Shown here one piece after another: positions 8,355 through 24,002 of a stretch of 64,000 bases of DNA. The notes beneath the pieces were generated by a model that worked only from the letters and a program-made list of their open reading frames with translations, was not told where the DNA came from and did not search any database. Source of the stretch: Thermanaeromonas sp. C210. Lineage in GTDB: Bacteria; Bacillota; DSM-521; Neomoorellales; Neomoorellaceae. Numbering within the stretch: the first letter of the stretch is position 1; every line of letters starts with the position of its first letter. The position numbers and the translations under genes were made by a program. Location: the NCBI RefSeq assembly GCF_013167955.1, contig NZ_BLWF01000001.1, positions 496,001 through 560,000 on the forward strand. The letters are read 5' to 3'.

Positions 8355-8439
8355 TGGTGCGGGCGAGAGGACTTGAACCTCCACGGGGGATACCCACCAG
8401 ATCCTAAGTCTGGCGCGTCTGCCGTTCCGCCACGCCCGC
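8355..8439 (-). tRNA. tRNA-Leu (anticodon UAG), left copy
   Basis: The minus strand reads a complete class II tRNA. The 7-bp acceptor stem is GCGGGCG / CGCCCGC, the discriminator is A, and CCA is encoded. The anticodon loop is CTTAGGA with anticodon TAG (plus-strand bases 8404-8406). The T-loop is GTTCAAGTC, and a long variable arm is present. It is identical over its whole length to the copy at 22422-22506. The two copies flank the integrated element. Sequence upstream of its 5' end (from 8440) belongs to the element and shows no clear promoter, so this copy may be silent. Confidence 0.95.
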
Positions 8440-11827: not shown

Positions 11828-13753
11828 ATGGGTTCTGACCATATTCTACCGGAAAATCCGGAATTCGCCAAGCTGCTCTTCGATACCTACCACGAAGCAG
11901 GCTGCGACCGTTTCATACTTATCCAGCCCGGTACCAAAGAGCCGCTCCGTGACCCAGAAACTGGAAGCTGGGCTGTCGTAGATGTCGCCACAGCCTTCCA
12001 GCACTGGTTAGGCGGCGGTAACGTCGCAATCGTGCCTACCTGGTACAACATGACAGTGCTTGACTTTGACCCGCTGCCCGGTTGCCGGATCAAGGTTTCC
12101 CACGTCCTGGAGGTCCTGGCAAGCGCCGGTATTACAAAAACGCCGATCGTTTTAAGCCCAGGGCAAAAGCATGAAGGTGGGATACACGTCCACCTTAAGG
12201 ACCCCGGTCCCGAATGGGACATCAAATTGCCAATATTTGACATTCCCAATCTGAACCATGTTGATGTTCGTCGGGGAAATTACATCTTGCTACCACCGAG
12301 CACCATTAATGGCAAAAAGTACCAGTGGTATGACGACGGTAAAGAGTTATGGGCACTTGGTACCACGGCCCTTGCGGAGGTTCCTAGAGCCTGGTTAGTC
12401 CCGGCGAAAGCGGAAGACGAACTGGAGATACCCACAGCGGGGGTGGACTTGGCAGCAGCCATCGAGAAATTGGCGCAGAAGTGCAGGTCAGGAGATGCGG
12501 AATTTGTGAAACAAGCCTTAACCGGAAGCTGGCCGGAAAAGCAGACTGACGGAATTGACCGCTCCGGCGCGGAATACAGGTTGGCCCGTATATGCGAAGA
12601 AGCGGGTTTAACCCCACAGGAAACGGCGGCGGTTGTGCGGGTTAGCGCGGTGCACCAGGCAAAATTTGGCAACCGGCAGGACGAGCGTGAACGGCTCAAA
12701 GCCGTCGTCGAGGCCGCATTCCAAGACCGTACTGAGCAGCAGTCGCCACCGCGAGTCTCAGTAGGCAAAATCTGGAGTGCGGATGAACTCGCTAGGGCCG
12801 ACCTACCCGAGCCCTCATGGCTGCTGCCCGGCCTGCTCCCCGCGCAAGGCCTAACGGTACTGGCAGGTAGGCCTAAGGTAGGTAAGTCCTGGCTGGCCCT
12901 GGACATTGCCTTAAGCCTGGCCGCGAGCAAACAAGTCCTGGGGATGAGGCCCCCGGCGGAAGCCCCTACCCTGTATATCAGCCTAGAGGATAACCCAAGG
13001 CGGCTAAAAAACCGCCTCGAAATGGCCCGCCTGCCTGCACCCCGAGACGGTTTACTCACCACATCGTTCCCGAATATGCCTGCGGCGCTAGAGGAGCTCG
13101 ACAAGCTTATCCCGCGCTATGGCCTCAAGCTAATCGCCGTTGACACCTGGGCTCGTTTTAGGCCTGCACGGCGTGGCAAGTCAAGCGACATTTACGCCCA
13201 GGATTACCAGGAAATTTCCGCCTTCAAGCAACTTCTGGATACGCACGGTATTGCGGGCCTGCTTGTGCACCACCTAAACCAGGCAAAGGACACAGAGCAT
13301 TGGACGGACCGAGTTCTGGGCACCACAGGCCTGATTGGAGGGCCGGATACCTTATTGGCACTGACACGGGCACCACAAGGGGCAGTCCTCCGGGCTATTG
13401 GCCGTGACGTGCCCGAAACCGAGCTGGCTGTGGAATTTAAAGATTACCGCTGGCACGTGCTCGGGGCCGCTGAGCAAGTGCACATGAGCGAGGCCCGCAA
13501 ACAGGTGCTGGAAGCCCTCCGGCTTTTGAACGGGGCCACAGCGCAGGAGGTAGCCGACTATACGGGTAAGCCACCCAGCACAGTGCGGCGTCTCTTGGCG
13601 CACCTCCATAGAGACGGGCTGGTTGTGAAGGTCAAAGGCCGCTACTATCCGGTAGAGGGACTTATCATAAAGCACCAGGGCAAAGTGGTCGAGGTGAATT
13701 TTGCACAATTAAATCCCACACGCGGTGAGGATAACACCAATGATGATAACTAA
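11828..13753 (+). CDS. PrimPol-AAA replication protein
   Basis: 641 residues with three parts. Residues about 5-190 form a bifunctional primase/polymerase (PrimPol) domain: VLDFDP near 78-83 supplies the catalytic acidic pair and GGIHVHLK near 117-124 the conserved histidine region. Residues about 330-530 are a RepA/RadA-like AAA ATPase with Walker A GRPKVGKSW (about 346-354), Walker B LIAVDTW (about 434-440) and a VHHLNQAK sensor region. Residues about 560-615 form a winged helix (VADYTGKPPSTVRRLLAHLH). This is the typical initiator-primase-helicase of plasmids, phage satellites and integrative elements. It is followed directly by an iteron-like region, so it probably recognises and opens that origin. 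Confidence 0.88.
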   Translation: MGSDHILPENPEFAKLLFDTYHEAGCDRFILIQPGTKEPLRDPETGSWAVVDVATAFQHWLGGGNVAIVPTWYNMTVLDFDPLPGCRIKVSHVLEVLASAGITKTPIVLSPGQKHEGGIHVHLKDPGPEWDIKLPIFDIPNLNHVDVRRGNYILLPPSTINGKKYQWYDDGKELWALGTTALAEVPRAWLVPAKAEDELEIPTAGVDLAAAIEKLAQKCRSGDAEFVKQALTGSWPEKQTDGIDRSGAEYRLARICEEAGLTPQETAAVVRVSAVHQAKFGNRQDERERLKAVVEAAFQDRTEQQSPPRVSVGKIWSADELARADLPEPSWLLPGLLPAQGLTVLAGRPKVGKSWLALDIALSLAASKQVLGMRPPAEAPTLYISLEDNPRRLKNRLEMARLPAPRDGLLTTSFPNMPAALEELDKLIPRYGLKLIAVDTWARFRPARRGKSSDIYAQDYQEISAFKQLLDTHGIAGLLVHHLNQAKDTEHWTDRVLGTTGLIGGPDTLLALTRAPQGAVLRAIGRDVPETELAVEFKDYRWHVLGAAEQVHMSEARKQVLEALRLLNGATAQEVADYTGKPPSTVRRLLAHLHRDGLVVKVKGRYYPVEGLIIKHQGKVVEVNFAQLNPTRGEDNTNDDN

Positions 13754-13754
13754 C

Positions 13755-13878
13755 CGAGCACTACGAGCAACATGAACAACATGAGCATAGCGATCAAGGC
13801 GATCATAGCGAGCAAAGCGAGCACCCCGAGCACAAGGCGAGCGGAGCGAGCAGAGCGAGCAAGGCGATCATAGGCGAG
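13755..13878. repeat. Array of 9-bp iteron-like repeats
   Basis: Starting just after the PrimPol-AAA stop, the unit GCGAGCA or GCGATCA recurs mostly every 9 bp, with two variable bases between units. The clearest run is 13798-13825, and another lies at 13841-13870. I count at least nine recognisable copies, some degenerate. The right half carries the complement of the unit (TGCTCGCC), giving inverted repeats. Iterons next to a rep gene are typical of theta-replication origins; function here is inferred. Confidence 0.7.
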
Positions 13879-13965
13879 CGCTCGCCTTGTGCTCGCCCTA
13901 CCCTGGGAGGGGGCGAGCACTGTGGAAGCTAGATTTTTCAAGGCTTCCAGGGCTCAGTGCTCGCC
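13827..13965. other. Two large inverted repeats, candidate replication origin
   Basis: A perfect 17-bp inverted repeat pairs 13827-13843 (CGAGCACAAGGCGAGCG) with 13879-13895 around a 35-bp loop made of 9-bp repeats. A second stem pairs GGCGAGCACTG at 13912-13922 with CAGTGCTCGCC at 13955-13965, and inside it TGGAAGC pairs with GCTTCCA around an AT-rich loop. The segment lies between the replication gene and the next operon genes, encodes nothing convincing, and together with the iterons looks like an origin or a control site for copy number. Confidence 0.6.
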
Positions 13966-14031
13966 TGCTCGCCCTGCTCGCCCACATATATAGGTATTAT
14001 GTAAACTGCCAGAAAGGGGGTTTGTCCGGCT

Positions 14032-15978: not shown

Positions 15979-16198
15979 GCGGGCCGTCCCGCAGGTATTA
16001 CAAGCGCTGGCGGAGCAGGCGGCCGGAGGAGACCGCAAAGCCCGGCGGCTGCTAGAAGAAGTCTTGCGCAATGCGAAAGGAGGCGGCGAGCATGTTCGAG
16101 TTTCTGGAAAATATCGGCAAGCGGATCAAGGACGTTGCAACACGGGTTGCCCAATCGGGGACGGCAAAGCGCGTGAGTGCGTGGCTGCGCTCTATTAG
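15929..16198 (+). CDS. Small helical protein overlapping its neighbours
   Basis: 89 residues from an ATG with GGGGGAGGTG upstream. The first 55 residues are a charged helix (MRQEMEKARREAAAAIERAV, then LLEEVLRNAK); the remainder reads through the start of the 1097-residue gene in another frame and looks less natural. It may therefore be a shortened gene whose original end was lost. The helical part recalls small-terminase-like or scaffolding-type helices, but that is only a resemblance. Confidence 0.45.
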   Translation: MRQEMEKARREAAAAIERAVPQVLQALAEQAAGGDRKARRLLEEVLRNAKGGGEHVRVSGKYRQADQGRCNTGCPIGDGKARECVAALY

Positions 16199-19100
16199 CG
16201 CCCCGCGTTACGAAGCTAAGACACCGGACGAGCTTTACAAGCAGGTCCGTAAAGAGGCCGAGGCGTACCGGAAGGCGCAGGTGGAAACACTTACCAGAGC
16301 CATTGAACGCCTGCCCGCACGGTTGCGCTCCGTTGCATACGGGGCCTTGACTGTTCCCGATTATGCGGCCTTTGGCGCTTTCCGCTCGCGGGAGGTCGGG
16401 CAGAAGCTCATAGAGCGGGGCGCACTTACCCCCCAGGCCGAGAAGACGGCCCGTGCGGTTGGTGAGGTGCTTGGGGTTTACCTCCCATTCGCTGGGGCAT
16501 CCCGGCTGCTGCGGCCCGTAACGCGCATTATAGCCGCCGAAAGCCCAAAACTCGGTCGGATAGCTGCCGCCATCCTAGAGGGCGCTCTTGGCGGCGCGTG
16601 GCTGGGCGTTGAAGAAAGCAAGCGCAAGGGGCAGCCCACGGCCCAATGGGTGCAGCGGGAAGCGGTTTCCGGTGCTCTATGGGCAGGTGCCGGTGCAGCC
16701 GCAGGCGAAAAGCTCATGCAGGCCGGGAGCAAGCTCTTGCAGCGTGCTGGCGGTAGCCCGGCCTTAGAGCAGATCAGGCGCGTGATGCATGAATGGGTGA
16801 TTGGCCGCAAAGTGGCCGAAAACAAGCCCAGGATGTTCGAGAGCCTCTTGCAGAAGGCGGCAGGCGGGGATGAGGGCCTCTTGAACCTCGCCCATCTAGC
16901 CAGGGCCTGGCTCAAGGACCCGGAATTCCTTGACCCGCAGCACTGGCGCACTACCTTGGCGAGCAGGATTTCCCAGGTGGAGCAGAAGGCTGCGCAGGCG
17001 GGCAACCTGGAAAGCGCCGCCTTCCTGCGCTCGCTACGGGAAAAGCTCCCCACTATGGAGGATGCCACCATCCAGCGGCTGGCTAGGGCCACCCAGGACG
17101 TGCATAGCCTCAGCGAGCGTCTGAACCGAGTGCTTACCCGCCTGGGTCTTGAAGAAACCTGGCAGCACCCACAAGAAATTTACGTACCGCGCTACGTCGC
17201 TGAGACGGCCCTGGCGCAGCGTGGCGCACAACCCACGGGCTCGGCGGCGGGCGCTATGCTGGCCCGCAGGCCGCACCTTTTCAGTCCGCACCAACTGCCC
17301 AGGCAGTTGAGCCTGGAAGAAGCGCTCGTTAAGTTCAAGCCGCAAGAACTGACGCTGGACGTGTCGAAAACGTTGCCCTTGCGAATTTCTGAGCACCAGC
17401 GGCTATTGGAAAACGTGAAATTCCTCAACCGCATCCGTGCACTGGCCTCGCGGGAGTATGCGCCTGGGGTGAAGGAGATCACACTGCCGGGCGAACTACG
17501 CTCCCTGGAGGCACGGCGTATCAAAGAGCTGGGCCAGCAGGCTGCCCGAGGCGCTAAAGCCGCTGCCAAAGCCTTAGAGCGGGAGACGGGGCACCTGTAC
17601 CTACCGGCGGACGCCGCGAAGTGGTTGGAGGGGCGCTTGGCAGCCATGTATCATTCTCCTGGGCCTGCTGGTAGGGCCTGGCAGGAGGTAATGCGCCAGA
17701 CCACGCGGCTGAAAGTCTACCTGCCCTGGGATTGGGTAAGCCAGATGGTGTTCGGCGCTGTCGGTCCGGCCAAGGACTTTGTGACCGCCCTCAACCCCGT
17801 AGCACGCTTCGCCTATGCATGGCGCACAAGACAGACTGGTGCGGAGGCTTTGCAGAAAGTCTCACCCGAGCTGGCGAAGCTGGTGGAGGCTGGCCTTGAT
17901 ATAGGCGGCAGTGATTGGCACCGCAGGACGCTCGAGGCAGCCACAAAGCCCGTGCGGGAGCCTATCGCCAGGCTGTGGCGCACAATCGAGAGCCGCGTTT
18001 TAGAACCTGTGGAAACAATGGCCTTCGGCCCTACGATAGAGATGCGCACCGGCCTGGCCCTGGACCTGTTCAAGCGCTTCACTCAGCAGGGTAAGCCGGA
18101 GAGCGAGGCCGCGAAGACGGCGGCGCACCTGGCTAACTTCCTTACGGGCAGCGTTATGACGGAGATGCTTGACCCCACAGCTCAAAAGGCCTTGCGGTAT
18201 TTCTTCCTCGCGCCTAAGTGGCTCACCCACACCCTGCAATTGCCCTTCCGGGCGGCGGGATTGGTCACGGAGCCAGCGCTATCCCCTGAAGCCCGAGAGC
18301 TAGCGCAGCGGTTCCTAGCAGGTTATCTCATGAACAACGTGCTGGCGAATTTTATACTCGCCAATGCCTTGAACAGGCGCATTAACAACGGGCGCAATAT
18401 ATGGGAGAACCCTCCCGGATACCGGCACTTGGTGGACATCACGCCCTTGGTTGGGCTCGGACCGCAGGGGCAAAGACAATACTTTGATCCCTGGTTCTTC
18501 TGGCGGGACTACCCGAGGTTGCTCCAATACATCATGGGCGAGGTAAGGCCCGAGCGCTACTTTGTGTACAAGCTCGCGCCTCTGGTGGCGGTAGCTGCGG
18601 ACGCAGCAGGGTATGACCTCTCCACGGGGCAAGTACGGCCTATGGGCCTTGAGGAGCGTATACGAGCCACTGTGAAGGATATGGTCAGTATGCTGCTCCC
18701 CGCCGGTACGTTGGAAATACCCGGTGCTGGTCTCTCGGCTATGGGCGGCTGGTCCGCAACGCCTACAGGCAGGTTCGATTTACCCAGGCAGATAATGGAG
18801 TGGGTTGGGCTGCGGACGTTCCCGGGGCAGCGCCCCGTTCAGGGCCGCGGCACCCGATTGTTGCCCGAGGAGCAGGTGAGAATGCGGGAAGCCATGCGCC
18901 AGGGCGTTCTTGGGGTGCGGCGTGACAGTAAGGGCGTAATCCGGTTTGCGCTTACCAAAGACTGGTACTATTGGCTGGCCAGGGTACTCGGCAAGGCGCC
19001 CAGCGAAGAGGAAACAATCGAGGCCGTGCTTGATGTGCTCGGGCTACCGCCCGATGTAAGGGATAAGGCACTACGGAATATTTTCTCGCCGGAGAGCGTG

Positions 19101-19385
19101 GAGCTGTTCCGCAAATACTTCAGGGCGAACCCGACACCCAGGGGCCTGTGGATGATCCGCACTATTCTTGCCCAGGACAACCATGCGGACAGGGAGCGGG
19201 TGTTACAACGGCTGCTCTCGCAGGATAACCTAAACTGGCTGGCCGAAAAGCTGGGAAGATGGCCCACAGTGGAGGATGTGCTGCGTTATCACAAGACCAT
19301 GCTGCAACGGGAACTGCCAGACGTAGCAGCCCTGGGCACGGGGGCCACGGCGAGGCGGGCCTTACCACAGTTGTTAGGGAGGTGA
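16092..19385 (+). CDS. 1097-residue protein of unknown function, possibly transferred with the element DNA
   Basis: This is the largest gene of the element, starting at the ATG at 16092 (AAAGGAGGCGG upstream). The N-terminal 100 residues are basic helices. Residues about 120-210 are Ala/Gly-rich amphipathic segments. The middle is mostly helical with many Arg and Gln residues. Around residues 702-715 is YFFLAPKWLTHTLQ, then a hydrophobic stretch near 741-761 (FLAGYLMNNVLANFILANAL) and WFFWRDYPRLLQYI. The C-terminal 200 residues contain helical repeats with KAPSEEETIEAVLDVLGLPP and RWPTVEDVLRYH. No enzymatic motif is evident. Size, composition and the FFLAP-type segment recall large polyvalent or internal virion proteins that enter the host with DNA. 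That is inference. Confidence 0.7.
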   Translation: MFEFLENIGKRIKDVATRVAQSGTAKRVSAWLRSISAPRYEAKTPDELYKQVRKEAEAYRKAQVETLTRAIERLPARLRSVAYGALTVPDYAAFGAFRSREVGQKLIERGALTPQAEKTARAVGEVLGVYLPFAGASRLLRPVTRIIAAESPKLGRIAAAILEGALGGAWLGVEESKRKGQPTAQWVQREAVSGALWAGAGAAAGEKLMQAGSKLLQRAGGSPALEQIRRVMHEWVIGRKVAENKPRMFESLLQKAAGGDEGLLNLAHLARAWLKDPEFLDPQHWRTTLASRISQVEQKAAQAGNLESAAFLRSLREKLPTMEDATIQRLARATQDVHSLSERLNRVLTRLGLEETWQHPQEIYVPRYVAETALAQRGAQPTGSAAGAMLARRPHLFSPHQLPRQLSLEEALVKFKPQELTLDVSKTLPLRISEHQRLLENVKFLNRIRALASREYAPGVKEITLPGELRSLEARRIKELGQQAARGAKAAAKALERETGHLYLPADAAKWLEGRLAAMYHSPGPAGRAWQEVMRQTTRLKVYLPWDWVSQMVFGAVGPAKDFVTALNPVARFAYAWRTRQTGAEALQKVSPELAKLVEAGLDIGGSDWHRRTLEAATKPVREPIARLWRTIESRVLEPVETMAFGPTIEMRTGLALDLFKRFTQQGKPESEAAKTAAHLANFLTGSVMTEMLDPTAQKALRYFFLAPKWLTHTLQLPFRAAGLVTEPALSPEARELAQRFLAGYLMNNVLANFILANALNRRINNGRNIWENPPGYRHLVDITPLVGLGPQGQRQYFDPWFFWRDYPRLLQYIMGEVRPERYFVYKLAPLVAVAADAAGYDLSTGQVRPMGLEERIRATVKDMVSMLLPAGTLEIPGAGLSAMGGWSATPTGRFDLPRQIMEWVGLRTFPGQRPVQGRGTRLLPEEQVRMREAMRQGVLGVRRDSKGVIRFALTKDWYYWLARVLGKAPSEEETIEAVLDVLGLPPDVRDKALRNIFSPESVELFRKYFRANPTPRGLWMIRTILAQDNHADRERVLQRLLSQDNLNWLAEKLGRWPTVEDVLRYHKTMLQRELPDVAALGTGATARRALPQLLGR

Positions 19386-20184: not shown

Positions 20185-20232
20185 AGGTAAAACCTCCTTT
20201 TGAAATGTAGTTTTGGTATCGTTTCTGATTAT

Positions 20233-20261
20233 ATTGTATTCGACAGCGACACCTCTGTCAA
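20233..20261 (-). promoter_or_regulatory. Strong leftward promoter
   Basis: On the minus strand TTGACA, a 17-bp spacer and TACAAT, about 50 bp upstream of the leftward 87-residue gene. Confidence 0.8.
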
Positions 20262-20273
20262 CACTTTTGTAAT

Positions 20274-20281
20274 CGTTAACG
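20274..20281. promoter_or_regulatory. Palindrome between divergent promoters
   Basis: CGTTAACG is an 8-bp palindrome lying between the leftward and rightward promoters, 22 bp upstream of the rightward -35. A candidate operator for the XRE protein encoded next to it. Confidence 0.4.
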
Positions 20282-20302
20282 GTAAAAACTTATTCAATGC
20301 TG

Positions 20303-20331
20303 TTGCTAAAATGCTCAAAGACGGTTACAAT
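20303..20331 (+). promoter_or_regulatory. Promoter of the XRE-hicBAB operon
   Basis: TTGCTA at 20303-20308, a 17-bp spacer and TACAAT at 20326-20331, 24 bp before the XRE start codon. Confidence 0.65.
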
Positions 20332-20355
20332 GGTAGTGAAAGGAGGAAATCCGCT

Positions 20356-20577
20356 ATGCGAATAGAATCGAGGCTATCTCACATTCTAGGAGCTCAGCGA
20401 TTAAAGATGAGTGAAGTCGCTAGGCGGACAGGTATTGGGAAATCGACACTGCTCAGGCTTTATCACGACAGAGCTGAGGGAATACGATTTGACGTTTTGG
20501 CTAAGCTATGTAAAGTCCTTAACTGCCAACCCGGCGATTTGCTCGTCTACGTGCCTGACGAGGAGCAAGTCTGCTAA
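20356..20577 (+). CDS. XRE-family (Cro/CI-type) regulator
   Basis: 73 residues from the ATG at 20356 with AGGAGGAAA upstream. MSEVARRTGIGKSTLLRLYH is a Cro/CI helix-turn-helix, followed by FDVLAKLCKVLNCQPGDLL, the conserved helix-four/five block of short XRE regulators. It heads an operon with HicB-like, HicA and HicB proteins. It could repress that operon, since neither HicB-like protein has a visible DNA-binding domain, or control the switch between integrated and active states. Confidence 0.82.
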   Translation: MRIESRLSHILGAQRLKMSEVARRTGIGKSTLLRLYHDRAEGIRFDVLAKLCKVLNCQPGDLLVYVPDEEQVC

Positions 20578-20651
20578 TGGGCTTGCCTCACAGGCTCGTG
20601 AGCTTGAGCCCACACCGGCTAAACCCAAAGGCGAAGGAGGTTGTTACTGTT

Positions 20652-20852
20652 ATGCGCTTTACGGCTGTATTGACGAAAGAGGGCCAATGGTATGTAGCTA
20701 AAGCTGTGGAGGTAGAGGTAGCGAGCCAAGGCAGGACCATCGAAGAGGCCCTTGCGAACTTGAAGGAGGCCCTGGAGCTTTATTTCGAGGACGAGCCTTT
20801 GCCGGAGGCCCTGCCTGAACCTATAATCGCCACGGTTGAGGTAGCATTATGA
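20652..20852 (+). CDS. HicB-like partial antitoxin (first copy)
   Basis: 66 residues from the ATG at 20652 (GAAGGAGG upstream). FTAVLTKEGQWYVAKAVEVEVASQGRTIEEA is the degenerate RNase H-like HicB fold, with the helix EEALANLKEALELYFED, and no C-terminal DNA-binding domain. Its stop overlaps the hicA start (ATGA). HicB proteins occlude the HicA active site. Confidence 0.78.
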   Translation: MRFTAVLTKEGQWYVAKAVEVEVASQGRTIEEALANLKEALELYFEDEPLPEALPEPIIATVEVAL

Positions 20853-21073
20853 GCCCTAAACTGCCTTTGGTATCCGGTCGGGAGGTCATCAAAGCCCTTA
20901 CAAAGGCGGGGTTTCGCCAGGCAAGCCAGCGAGGGAGCCATGTGAAAATGCGTCACCCCAGCGGCAGAACGGCCATAGTGCCCTTGCATGATGAGCTTGC
21001 TCCTGGTACGTTACGCTCAGTTCTCAAGCAGGCGGGCCTCACTGTGGAGGAGTTCACTGCGCTTTTGCGCTAG
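20849..21073 (+). CDS. hicA: HicA-type mRNA interferase toxin
   Basis: 74 residues. VSGREVIKALTKAGFRQASQ, then GSHVKMRHP carrying the catalytic histidine, and LAPGTLRSVLKQAGLTVEEF match the double-stranded RNA-binding-like HicA fold throughout its usual length. HicA cleaves mRNA when free of HicB. It is flanked on both sides by HicB-like genes. The intact active site suggests the module is functional and helps keep the element in the host. Confidence 0.88.
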   Translation: MSPKLPLVSGREVIKALTKAGFRQASQRGSHVKMRHPSGRTAIVPLHDELAPGTLRSVLKQAGLTVEEFTALLR

Positions 21074-21087
21074 GAGGTCAAGCGTCA

Positions 21088-21315
21088 ATGACCGAATACC
21101 TCATTGTGATTGAGCGGGCAGGCAATAACTTTTCCGCCTATTCCCCTGACCTGCCGGGCTGCGTGGCTACAGGTGCAACGCTTGAAGAGGTAAGGGCTAA
21201 CATGGCCGAAGCCATACGTATGCACATCGAGGGCTTGAAGGAAGACGGCCTTCCCATTCCACAACCTGCGACCATAGCTGAGCGCGTAAGTGTGGACCTG
21301 GGCCTGCTCGCCTAA
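21088..21315 (+). CDS. hicB: HicB-family antitoxin (second copy)
   Basis: 75 residues starting 14 bp after hicA. YLIVIERAGNNFSAYSPDLPG, then CVATGATLEEVRANMAEAIR and HIEGLKEDGLPIP are the classic HicB N-terminal domain motifs. It lacks a DNA-binding tail. It is much closer to canonical HicB than the gene before hicA, so this is probably the cognate antitoxin. Confidence 0.85.
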   Translation: MTEYLIVIERAGNNFSAYSPDLPGCVATGATLEEVRANMAEAIRMHIEGLKEDGLPIPQPATIAERVSVDLGLLA

Positions 21316-21435: not shown

Positions 21436-22371
21436 CTAAAGCCTGCGCTTAGCCCTTTTGCCTAATTGCTGGAGTTTTGCCACAGGTGTGGCCTTCTCAT
21501 GGATCTCTTTCACGTCTTCTTGCAGGTAGCGCACGTACCTGCGGGTCATGGCAAGGTCCTTATGGCCTAATATGCGCTGCAAAGCGAACGGGTCATTGGC
21601 CTCTTTCAAAAACTCAATGGCGAAGGTGTGCCGCAGGCCGTAGGGCGTGACCTTAACACCCGCTTTCTGGCAGTATTCCCTCACCCTTGCAGCCCACTGG
21701 CTACGGTCTAAAGCCTTCCCGTTTTCGGTAGCGAACAAGGGCACATCCTCACCCCACCATGTGGGCCGTACTTTGAGGAACTTCGCCAACGCTTGCGCGG
21801 TGAAAGGCGAAAGGACCAGAGTCCTTCCCACACGGGTCTTAGCTACTTCCGGGCGTATGTACAGCTCGCGGGCTTCGAGGTTTAAATCGCCTACCCTCAC
21901 CCGGAATAGCTCTCCGGGTCTTGCTCCGGTGTCTATTTGCACCAGCAAGAGGCAGTAATCCCTTAAGCCTGCATAGCTCCGCTTGTCCGGTTGCTGGAGC
22001 AGCTTCTTCAAGGCTTCTAAAGGCACGTGCCTTATGCGGTTTAAGTCTTCCTTCGCTGGCCTTATCCCTGCCACAGGGTTGGCGGGAAGGTAGCCTTGGC
22101 TTACGCACCAGTTGAAGAACGCTTTGAGGTGGCGCAAGCGGATGTTGCGGTACCCAGGAGAGCAAGGCTGGCTGAAGTAGCGTATAACGGCTTTCTGCAC
22201 GGCCTCGTAGGTGTTGAGGTTGGGGCTGGCCTTGAGGAAGGTCTCCACATGGAAGCGGTAGTTCTCCAGCGAGGCGGGCACTATACCATCAGCCTGCTTG
22301 GCAAGAAGGAACTCCTCCAGGGCTTGGGATAAGTCCAGCACCTTGGGGCTAAGTTTCGCAATCCTGCCCAT
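21436..22371 (-). CDS. Tyrosine-recombinase integrase of the element
   Basis: 311 residues from the ATG at 22371. Residues about 12-100 form the SAM-like core-binding domain. The catalytic domain shows R151 in DTGARPGEL, K179 in AKTRVGR, R247 in YGLRHTFA, H270 in LGHKDLAMT, and the nucleophile Y279 in TRRYVRY. The usual first histidine of the HxxR box is tyrosine (Y244), a known variation. A longer frame upstream reads through the tRNA and is not real. It sits 51 bp from the right tRNA-Leu, in the same direction. Its ribosome site GAGGAGG is the 3' arm of the tRNA terminator-like hairpin. It should catalyse integration and excision at tRNA-Leu. Confidence 0.93.
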   Translation of the reverse strand: MGRIAKLSPKVLDLSQALEEFLLAKQADGIVPASLENYRFHVETFLKASPNLNTYEAVQKAVIRYFSQPCSPGYRNIRLRHLKAFFNWCVSQGYLPANPVAGIRPAKEDLNRIRHVPLEALKKLLQQPDKRSYAGLRDYCLLLVQIDTGARPGELFRVRVGDLNLEARELYIRPEVAKTRVGRTLVLSPFTAQALAKFLKVRPTWWGEDVPLFATENGKALDRSQWAARVREYCQKAGVKVTPYGLRHTFAIEFLKEANDPFALQRILGHKDLAMTRRYVRYLQEDVKEIHEKATPVAKLQQLGKRAKRRL

Positions 22372-22378
22372 AAAAACA

Positions 22379-22412
22379 GCCTCCTCAGCAACACTAGATT
22401 TCTTGAGGAGGC
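22379..22412 (-). terminator. tRNA-Leu terminator hairpin that doubles as integrase ribosome site
   Basis: On the minus strand GCCTCCTCA pairs with TGAGGAGGC, as after the left tRNA copy, but the following tract is GTTTTTATG, i.e. interrupted and ending in the integrase start codon. GAGGAGG in the 3' arm is 8 bases from that ATG, so folding would hide the ribosome site and termination would be leaky. Confidence 0.65.
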
Positions 22413-22421
22413 AAAGCCTTG

Positions 22422-22506
22422 TGGTGCGGGCGAGAGGACTTGAACCTCCACGGGGGATACCCACCAGATCCTAAGTCTGGCGCGTCTGCCGTTCCGCCAC
22501 GCCCGC
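22422..22506 (-). tRNA. tRNA-Leu (anticodon UAG), right copy
   Basis: Same 85 bp as the left copy, including encoded CCA; anticodon bases are 22471-22473. Its 5' flank is chromosomal and contains a probable promoter, so this is likely the expressed copy. Downstream lies the element integrase. Confidence 0.95.
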
Positions 22507-22564: not shown

Positions 22565-24002
22565 TGTGATCCGTCTGTGATATTGTCAGGGTGAAATCCA
22601 TCAGTGAAAATGTCAGTATGAGCAGGGAGAGGATTACTTTGTCACAGACGGAACTAAATCGCATCCAAGTCTTAGAACAAACTCTGAGAGGGTTAATTAC
22701 CACTAGTTATGCGGCCTTACTTCTAGGCCTAAGTGAACGGCACGTCTATAGGCTCAAGGCCAGGTTGCGAGAGCACGGGCCCGCTTCCTTGGCCCACGGA
22801 AACCGCGGACGTAAGCCAGCCCACACTATCCCAGAAGGTACCCGCCAGCAGGTGGTCCATCTCGCTCAAACTAAGTATAGGGGGTGCAATTACACTTTCC
22901 TTAGTGAGTTGCTTTATGAGCATGAAGGTATCTCTTTAAGCCCTTCTTCTGTAGCCCGTATCCTCAAAGCCGCCGGTATCTTAAGCCCTAAAAAGCACCG
23001 GCCTCCTAAACTCCACCGCAGCCGCCCACGTAAACCTCAAATGGGCCTTCTGGTCCAAATCGACGGCAGCCACCACGACTGGTTGGAAGGCCGCGGCCCT
23101 AAGCTCGTCTTGCTTTTAGCCATCGACGACGCTACCGGCCAAATACTTTCTGCCCTCTTCCGGCCTTCTGAAGATTTCGAGGGCTACCGCCGTCTCCTCT
23201 ATGACCTAGTAATTAACTACGGTATCCCACTGGCCATCTACTCCGACCGCCATACCCTCTTCTTCCCTCCTAAGGGTGAAGAGAATACTGCTAGTATCGC
23301 ACAACAGCTCCTGGGCCAACAACGCTCTTTAACCCAAATTGGCCGTATCTTAAACGAACTGGGGATCCAGCACATCCCCGCCCATTCCCCTCAGGCTAAA
23401 GGCCGCATCGAACGCTCCTTCCAGACCCTCCAGGAAAGGCTAGTTCTTGAGTTGCGCCTGGCAGGTGCTTCTACCCTGGAAGAGGCTAATGCCGTCCTTA
23501 AAAACTTTATCGTGCGCTATAACCAAAAGTTTGCTATACCCCCGGCTAACCCGGTTTCCGCTTTCCGCCCCATCCCCTCCCACTTGCGCCTGGAACATAT
23601 CTTCTGCTGGAAGGAACACCGGATATTGAACCCCGGCTATACCATCCGCTTCGAGTGCAAGACTTATAAAGTGTTAACTCCTAAAGGTGCGCCTATTATC
23701 CCTGTGCGTTCTGTGGTAGAAGTGCATAAACTGCCTGATGGTCGCTTGTATGTGGGATGGAAGGGAAATATATACTCGTTAGAACCTTTGGAGATTGCCC
23801 CCTCCTCTAAAACCCGGAGTAATATCCAGCCTGCGCTTACTCCCCAAATCGAGGAAAAGGCGGGCACTACTTCAATTCGTAGGCCCGCTCAAAATCATCC
23901 ATGGCGTAAGCCATGGAAACCCCGCAGGCCTAATTATACCACTTCTACCCTGACAGAATCACAGACGAGTTTTACCTGACATTTTCATTGACGCTTGACA
24001 TT
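22565..24002. mobile_element. IS1202-like (ISNCY) insertion sequence with 15-bp target duplication
   Basis: About 1.44 kb. The ends are imperfect inverted repeats, 19 of 26 matches between TGTGATCCGTCTGTG... and the complement of the right tip. GGACGACGCTTTCTT occurs immediately outside the left end (22550-22564) and again at 24003-24017, a 15-bp direct repeat read as target duplication; the exact right tip is uncertain by 2 bp. From what I recall of the IS1202 group, long target duplications are characteristic, and the transposase fits. Confidence 0.8.
22618..23979 (+). CDS. DDE transposase, IS1202/ISNCY type
   Basis: 453 residues from the ATG at 22618, which lies just inside the left inverted repeat; a GTG at 22591 inside the repeat is also in frame. 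An N-terminal HTH (SYAALLLGLSERHVYRLKAR) is followed by a second HTH-like segment and an rve integrase core. The core has the first Asp in LVQIDGSHHDW, the second in IYSDRHTLFF and the Glu in KGRIERSFQTLQ. Full length and uninterrupted, so probably active. Its stop codon lies in the right inverted repeat. Confidence 0.9.
   Translation: MSRERITLSQTELNRIQVLEQTLRGLITTSYAALLLGLSERHVYRLKARLREHGPASLAHGNRGRKPAHTIPEGTRQQVVHLAQTKYRGCNYTFLSELLYEHEGISLSPSSVARILKAAGILSPKKHRPPKLHRSRPRKPQMGLLVQIDGSHHDWLEGRGPKLVLLLAIDDATGQILSALFRPSEDFEGYRRLLYDLVINYGIPLAIYSDRHTLFFPPKGEENTASIAQQLLGQQRSLTQIGRILNELGIQHIPAHSPQAKGRIERSFQTLQERLVLELRLAGASTLEEANAVLKNFIVRYNQKFAIPPANPVSAFRPIPSHLRLEHIFCWKEHRILNPGYTIRFECKTYKVLTPKGAPIIPVRSVVEVHKLPDGRLYVGWKGNIYSLEPLEIAPSSKTRSNIQPALTPQIEEKAGTTSIRRPAQNHPWRKPWKPRRPNYTTSTLTESQTSFT

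Follow-up and report, generated by a model that had tools for sequence, protein, structure and literature searches.

A probable iteron-type replication origin adjoining the PrimPol–helicase gene of an integrated element in Thermanaeromonas sp. C210

Directly after a PrimPol–helicase gene of Thermanaeromonas sp. C210, a cluster of short repeats (iterons) occupies positions 13754-13985 of the window, by which we mean the whole 64,000-nucleotide stretch of DNA analysed. We propose, with a probability of about 0.82, that this cluster is the replication origin of the 14-kb element in which it lies, that the winged helix of the initiator binds the iterons, and that helicase rings load there while the PrimPol domain primes. 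Sequence comparison gives good support to an iteron-type origin beside the PrimPol gene, through the position and layout of the array and its covariation among relatives: because many distant relatives carry a cluster of the same layout, built from other words, in the same place, the array is very probably where replication of the element starts. The initial annotation had gone further and suggested a new type of origin. Support for a new type is weaker, since an initiator gene followed by its own iteron origin is an already known plan, established for SaPI/PICI elements and SCC Cch2.

The iteron array, its gene and its element

The first unit begins on the first base past the stop codon of the initiator gene (11828-13753, plus strand). 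Within 13754-13981 the core GCGAGCA occurs 18 times (at most one mismatch, both strands), mainly at 9-bp steps; the interval 13751-13985 holds 18 units, where 235-bp tiles average 0.65. Lag-9 identity over 60 bp is highest in the whole 64 kb for the stretch that begins at 13765 (44/60 matches; the runner-up has 32). The 9-bp GCGAGCA-type repeats that the initial annotation had placed after the PrimPol gene are thus confirmed. A dispersed genome-wide repeat was excluded, as the tandem unit GCGAKCANNGCGAKCA is confined to this locus within the 2.68-Mb genome. Rfam matched nothing in the window except two tRNA genes.

The units follow an ordered plan that can be written +9, +5, -2, +1, a 38-bp gap, -3. 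Nine 9-bp slots with the core GCGAKCA form the first direct series (13754-13834, plus strand), the cores starting at 13754, 13763, 13772 (degenerate), 13781, 13790, 13799, 13808, 13817 and 13826. Five more direct iterons (13837, 13846, 13855, 13864 and 13874; 13837-13880, plus strand) are followed by two inverted ones at 13879 and 13890 (13879-13896, minus strand), which together with 13827-13843 form a perfect 17-bp inverted repeat. A lone direct iteron at 13913-13919 (plus strand), laid out likewise in relatives, precedes the gap (13920-13957), which contains a 7-bp hairpin. The array closes with a triplet of inverted iterons at 13958, 13966 and 13975 (13958-13981, minus strand). Beside these last iterons, at about 13980-14014, lies a patch of 68% AT that is a candidate melting region.

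The predicted initiator combines a PrimPol domain (residues 29-187; E 1.7e-11), an AAA_25 RecA-like helicase (316-486; E 2e-28) and a C-terminal winged helix of the HTH_IclR type (about 554-608; E 1.4e-9), as assigned by Pfam/PHROGs searches, PDB profiles and a structure model. A family profile searched against the PDB matched the hexameric RSF1010 RepA (E 7.8e-11) and the PrimPol part of pRN1 ORF904 (E 1e-7). The model, built from a 45-sequence input, reached a mean pLDDT of 78, most of the helicase and winged-helix blocks exceeding 90, and Foldseek aligned it to RSF1010 RepA at a TM-score of 0.69 (target-normalised). By sequence and predicted fold, the helicase is thus RepA-like; AAA_25 was its only family assignment, with no match to SF3 or to the PICI helicase families (DUF927, Primase_Cterm/D5-type). 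N-terminal domains vary within the family (Prim-Pol, RepB_primase and Toprim by Pfam), and by eye the PrimPol domain is replaced by a DnaB-like N-terminus in L029, L040 and L041 and by a zinc-finger/Toprim-like one in L025 and L030. The primase part seems to be swapped around a constant set of helicase, reader and iterons, which suggests that these three form a stable module.

The element is bounded by two identical 85-bp tRNA-Leu copies in exact direct repeat (8355-8439 and 22422-22506, both minus strand), and a tyrosine integrase recognised by Pfam/PHROGs lies at its right end (21436-22464, minus strand). The initiator gene is the one recognisable replication gene inside it, and no packaging or PICI capsid-interference genes were recognised among the ORFs scanned. 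Also present is a HicA toxin gene (20849-21073) that adjoins a gene for a HicB-like antitoxin (21088-21315) and is preceded by a small ORF matching DUF7387 (20577-20852). About a quarter of the element is taken up by a 1104-aa ORF (16071-19385) that has no Pfam/PHROGs family; neither phage records nor 40 related genomes yielded a match to it. Directly outside the right tRNA-Leu copy, an IS-like transposase gene (HTH plus integrase core) spans 22591-23979.

Position and layout recur in relatives while the iteron word changes

Relatives were sought through protein similarity alone and not through the repeats, in whole genomes, plasmids and alignment-based scans of genome_contigs and viral_contigs. 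This yielded 165 homologues with the whole AAA and winged-helix part, which fell into 120 clusters at 70% identity and came from Bacillota, Alphaproteobacteria, Acidobacteria, Chloroflexi, uncultivated viruses and one autonomous plasmid. Close nucleotide relatives did not come to light, peptide scans of viral_contigs and genome_contigs with the single protein giving none, and the searches turned up no near relative that shares these iterons. In the region beginning at the end of the winged-helix coding sequence, iterons were called where the best 7-mer word, counted on both strands, exceeded the 99% level of shuffled sequence. Of the 120 clusters, 57.5% passed, against 4.2% of coding-sequence controls and 13.3% of downstream controls; about 42% fell below the threshold. 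The comparison of repeats in related elements that the initial annotation had recommended thus returned iteron clusters in the same place with differing words.

Averaged over clusters, lag-9 identity was 0.39 in the first 50 nt past the end of the winged helix versus about 0.28 further downstream. The periodicity peaked 0-200 nt beyond this end, had fallen back by 250 nt and was absent from downstream flanks, and lags near 9 did not rise; minor lag-9 bumps within the coding region are probably due to motifs conserved in the protein. The iterons lie past the stop codon in 29 loci, within the coding tail in 23 and across the boundary in 17. Coding and non-coding clusters share the 9-bp step, which is therefore a feature of the DNA and not a three-codon repeat; where iterons fall in the coding tail, they translate to low-complexity peptides such as SIHSIHSIHSIHS. 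One viral contig (L208:4675-6426) carries in its initiator coding tail a run of 19 iterons at 9-bp steps with the core AGTCGCG.

Of the 58 loci with at least two blocks, 47 end in a block of opposite orientation to the first (p = 1e-6), and in 31 the final block consists of exactly three units, the triplet found in the window. First-block length peaks at six units (20 loci, against nine with five units and two with seven), the class of three being large as well, partly owing to the three-unit minimum. The recurrent layout reads about six direct, two or three inverted and one direct iteron, a gap of about 35-50 bp and three inverted iterons; +6, -2 or -3, +1, gap, -3 is seen in many loci, including L169, L064, L026, L025 and the Caldicellulosiruptor bescii plasmid pATHE01 (NC_012036; L022). 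The window fits this plan with an enlarged direct block, its core GCGAGCA and its 13-14 direct units deviating from the commonest forms. The plasmid encodes a homologous AAA_25-wHTH initiator and shows +6, -3, +1, -3; unlike the element, it is autonomous, uses the core TTCACTC and holds its iterons inside the coding tail. pATHE01 is presumably the pBAL of the literature, which has the same size of 8.3 kb; no experimental origin mapping for it was found in the literature searched. GC skew, proposed in the initial annotation as a check on the origin, proved uninformative, as it follows gene orientation both in the element and in pATHE01.

A same-family genome (G007) contains, at L003:1330-3012, a disrupted initiator-gene relative with an in-frame TAG and without its 3′ part, followed by an ORF resembling the HTH gene of the element (20200-20577). 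This locus is probably a decayed sister element; because the winged-helix end and any iterons are missing, it is uninformative on iteron conservation.

Core words vary between elements (TTCACTC, GGTAACT, TGTAACC, GCGAGCA and others). Across 69 loci, core similarity correlated with winged-helix identity when helicase-domain identity was controlled for (partial r 0.245, permutation p = 0.001), and the converse partial correlation, of core with helicase domain, was not significant (p = 0.14). Such covariation would be expected of a winged helix that reads the iterons. At most, it would indicate binding, and an operator array, through which the winged helix autoregulates the operon of the initiator, controls genes further downstream or handcuffs copies, would predict it as well; the location between the initiator gene and downstream ORFs on the same strand also agrees with such a role. 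We nevertheless consider an operator unlikely. The array follows the gene and does not sit at its promoter, it lies inside the coding tail in 23 loci, its elaborate two-orientation layout is kept across phyla, and the known analogues in such a position are origins (PMC6092414, PMC7581432, PMC4234260).

Stems, gap and AT content

Both stems proposed in the initial annotation were found: the 17-bp repeat (13827-13843/13879-13895) exceeds in length every other close perfect inverted repeat of the window, and the second stem (13912-13922/13955-13965), which encloses the gap hairpin, can be extended to 16 nt at 88%. Folded as single-stranded DNA, the region scored z = -8.35, and none of 200 shuffles did equally well. 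Both stems consist mostly of inverted iterons and are not separate features; the long stems and the strong predicted fold are due mainly to iterons facing one another. Of an origin combining iterons and cruciforms, as first put forward, the iterons are well supported by the comparison with relatives, and the cruciforms appear largely as a by-product of inverted iterons.

The strength of the fold would suit a stem-loop origin in which the protein recognises cruciforms and not iterons. There is a precedent in pRN1, where a 100-nt stem-loop on the 3′ side of the PrimPol gene is used by the encoded protein (PMC4234260). Like the present initiator, that protein (ORF904) unites PrimPol, helicase and C-terminal winged helix in one chain. 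However, pRN1 pairs an SF3 helicase with a large stem-loop free of iterons (PMC4234260), whereas here the helicase is AAA_25/RecA-like and resembles RepA, and the stems are built from iterons. Most relatives have iteron arrays and not one large stem, and gap hairpins are not general among them (mean z -0.4). A stem-loop origin is accordingly somewhat less probable still than an operator. Least probable of all, to the point of being highly improbable, is a degenerate tandem repeat or transcription terminator devoid of any replication role: slippage can expand short-unit repeats and the RNA fold is strong, but position, 9-bp step and inverted layout recur across phyla with unrelated words, and no terminator-like site was found in the region.

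On its minus strand, the gap contains GCCCTGGAAGCCTTGAAA (13936-13953), a motif common to the gaps of some relatives, with a consensus of about gCCCtgAAAgCCttGt. In leave-one-out tests, p was at most 0.05 in 16 of 73 loci and 0.009 in the window, which makes the motif a moderate lead, some automatically chosen gaps perhaps being the wrong interval. As a guess, it may be a candidate priming or loading site.

The AT-rich loop of the initial annotation did not hold up, since AT enrichment in 13923-13954 is only mild and the AT-rich patch of the window lies instead at about 13980-14014. No specific enrichment of such a patch was seen across relatives, where AT content is raised similarly in the gap, in the block and after it, leaving an AT-rich unwinding element (DUE) at a fixed place unsupported. 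DnaA boxes were also discarded as an origin marker, with a single perfect match in the window (13699) and no enrichment in relatives.

Proposed mechanism and relation to known replicons

By analogy with SaPI/PICI, SCC Cch2 and RSF1010, we propose that the 9-bp-spaced iterons 3′ of the initiator gene would be bound by the C-terminal winged helix of its own PrimPol-AAA_25 product. The direct and inverted blocks may place RepA-like hexameric rings face to face, the DNA between or beside the rings would open, helicase would load on the opened DNA, and the fused PrimPol domain would lay the first primers, possibly at the conserved gap motif. We hypothesise that the six-iteron block matches a hexamer; the window itself has 13-14 direct units.

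SaPI/PICI origins directly follow the initiator gene on its 3′ side and contain two iteron sets (PMC6092414), and in SCC the C-terminal domain of Cch2 binds repeats downstream of the cch2 gene (PMC7581432). The present element resembles SaPI/PICI in being integrated, in having an integrase, in the order of initiator gene and two sets of iterons, and in a C-terminal domain expected to read them. In SaPI/PICI origins the two sets flank an AT-rich stretch; here their position and number match, but the centre is only mildly AT-rich. PICI Rep helicases are of the DUF927 or Primase_Cterm/D5 type (PMC7581432), whereas here an AAA_25/RepA-like helicase is fused to PrimPol. No description of a 9-bp step with a +6/-3/+1/-3 layout was found in the literature searched.

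RSF1010 (IncQ) has in RepA a helicase close to the one here. According to PMC4234260, it has an iteron-bearing oriV and a primase acting nearby, and RepC, RepA and RepB′ divide iteron binding, helicase activity and priming among them. Whereas these are three separate proteins, with RepC binding the iterons, all three roles are apparently fused in one chain here; the ssi stem-loops of RSF1010 are without a proven equivalent. In the literature searched, which is largely open-access, we found no account of a single protein that joins primase, RepA-like helicase and iteron reader, combined with a 9-bp geometry fixed across phyla; an earlier description is possible, for instance for the C. bescii plasmid.

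More tentatively, and at rather less than even odds, these loci may represent a widespread, undescribed replicon family in which primase, RepA-like helicase and iteron reader are united in one chain. In such a family, six direct iterons would face three plus three inverted ones at 9-bp steps, two hexamers would sit head to head with subunits matched to iterons, the origin would often lie inside the initiator coding tail, and reader and word would co-evolve.

For a large set of little-studied integrated elements and plasmids, the findings provide a sequence rule for locating origins, namely 9-bp-spaced iterons 0-200 nt past the end of the winged-helix coding sequence. Iteron words vary along with the winged helices, and such natural pairs may help to decipher a recognition code. 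A specific geometric model of how the helicase loads can be tested on the basis of the layout. Portable pairs of origin and initiator could become vectors for thermophilic Bacillota.
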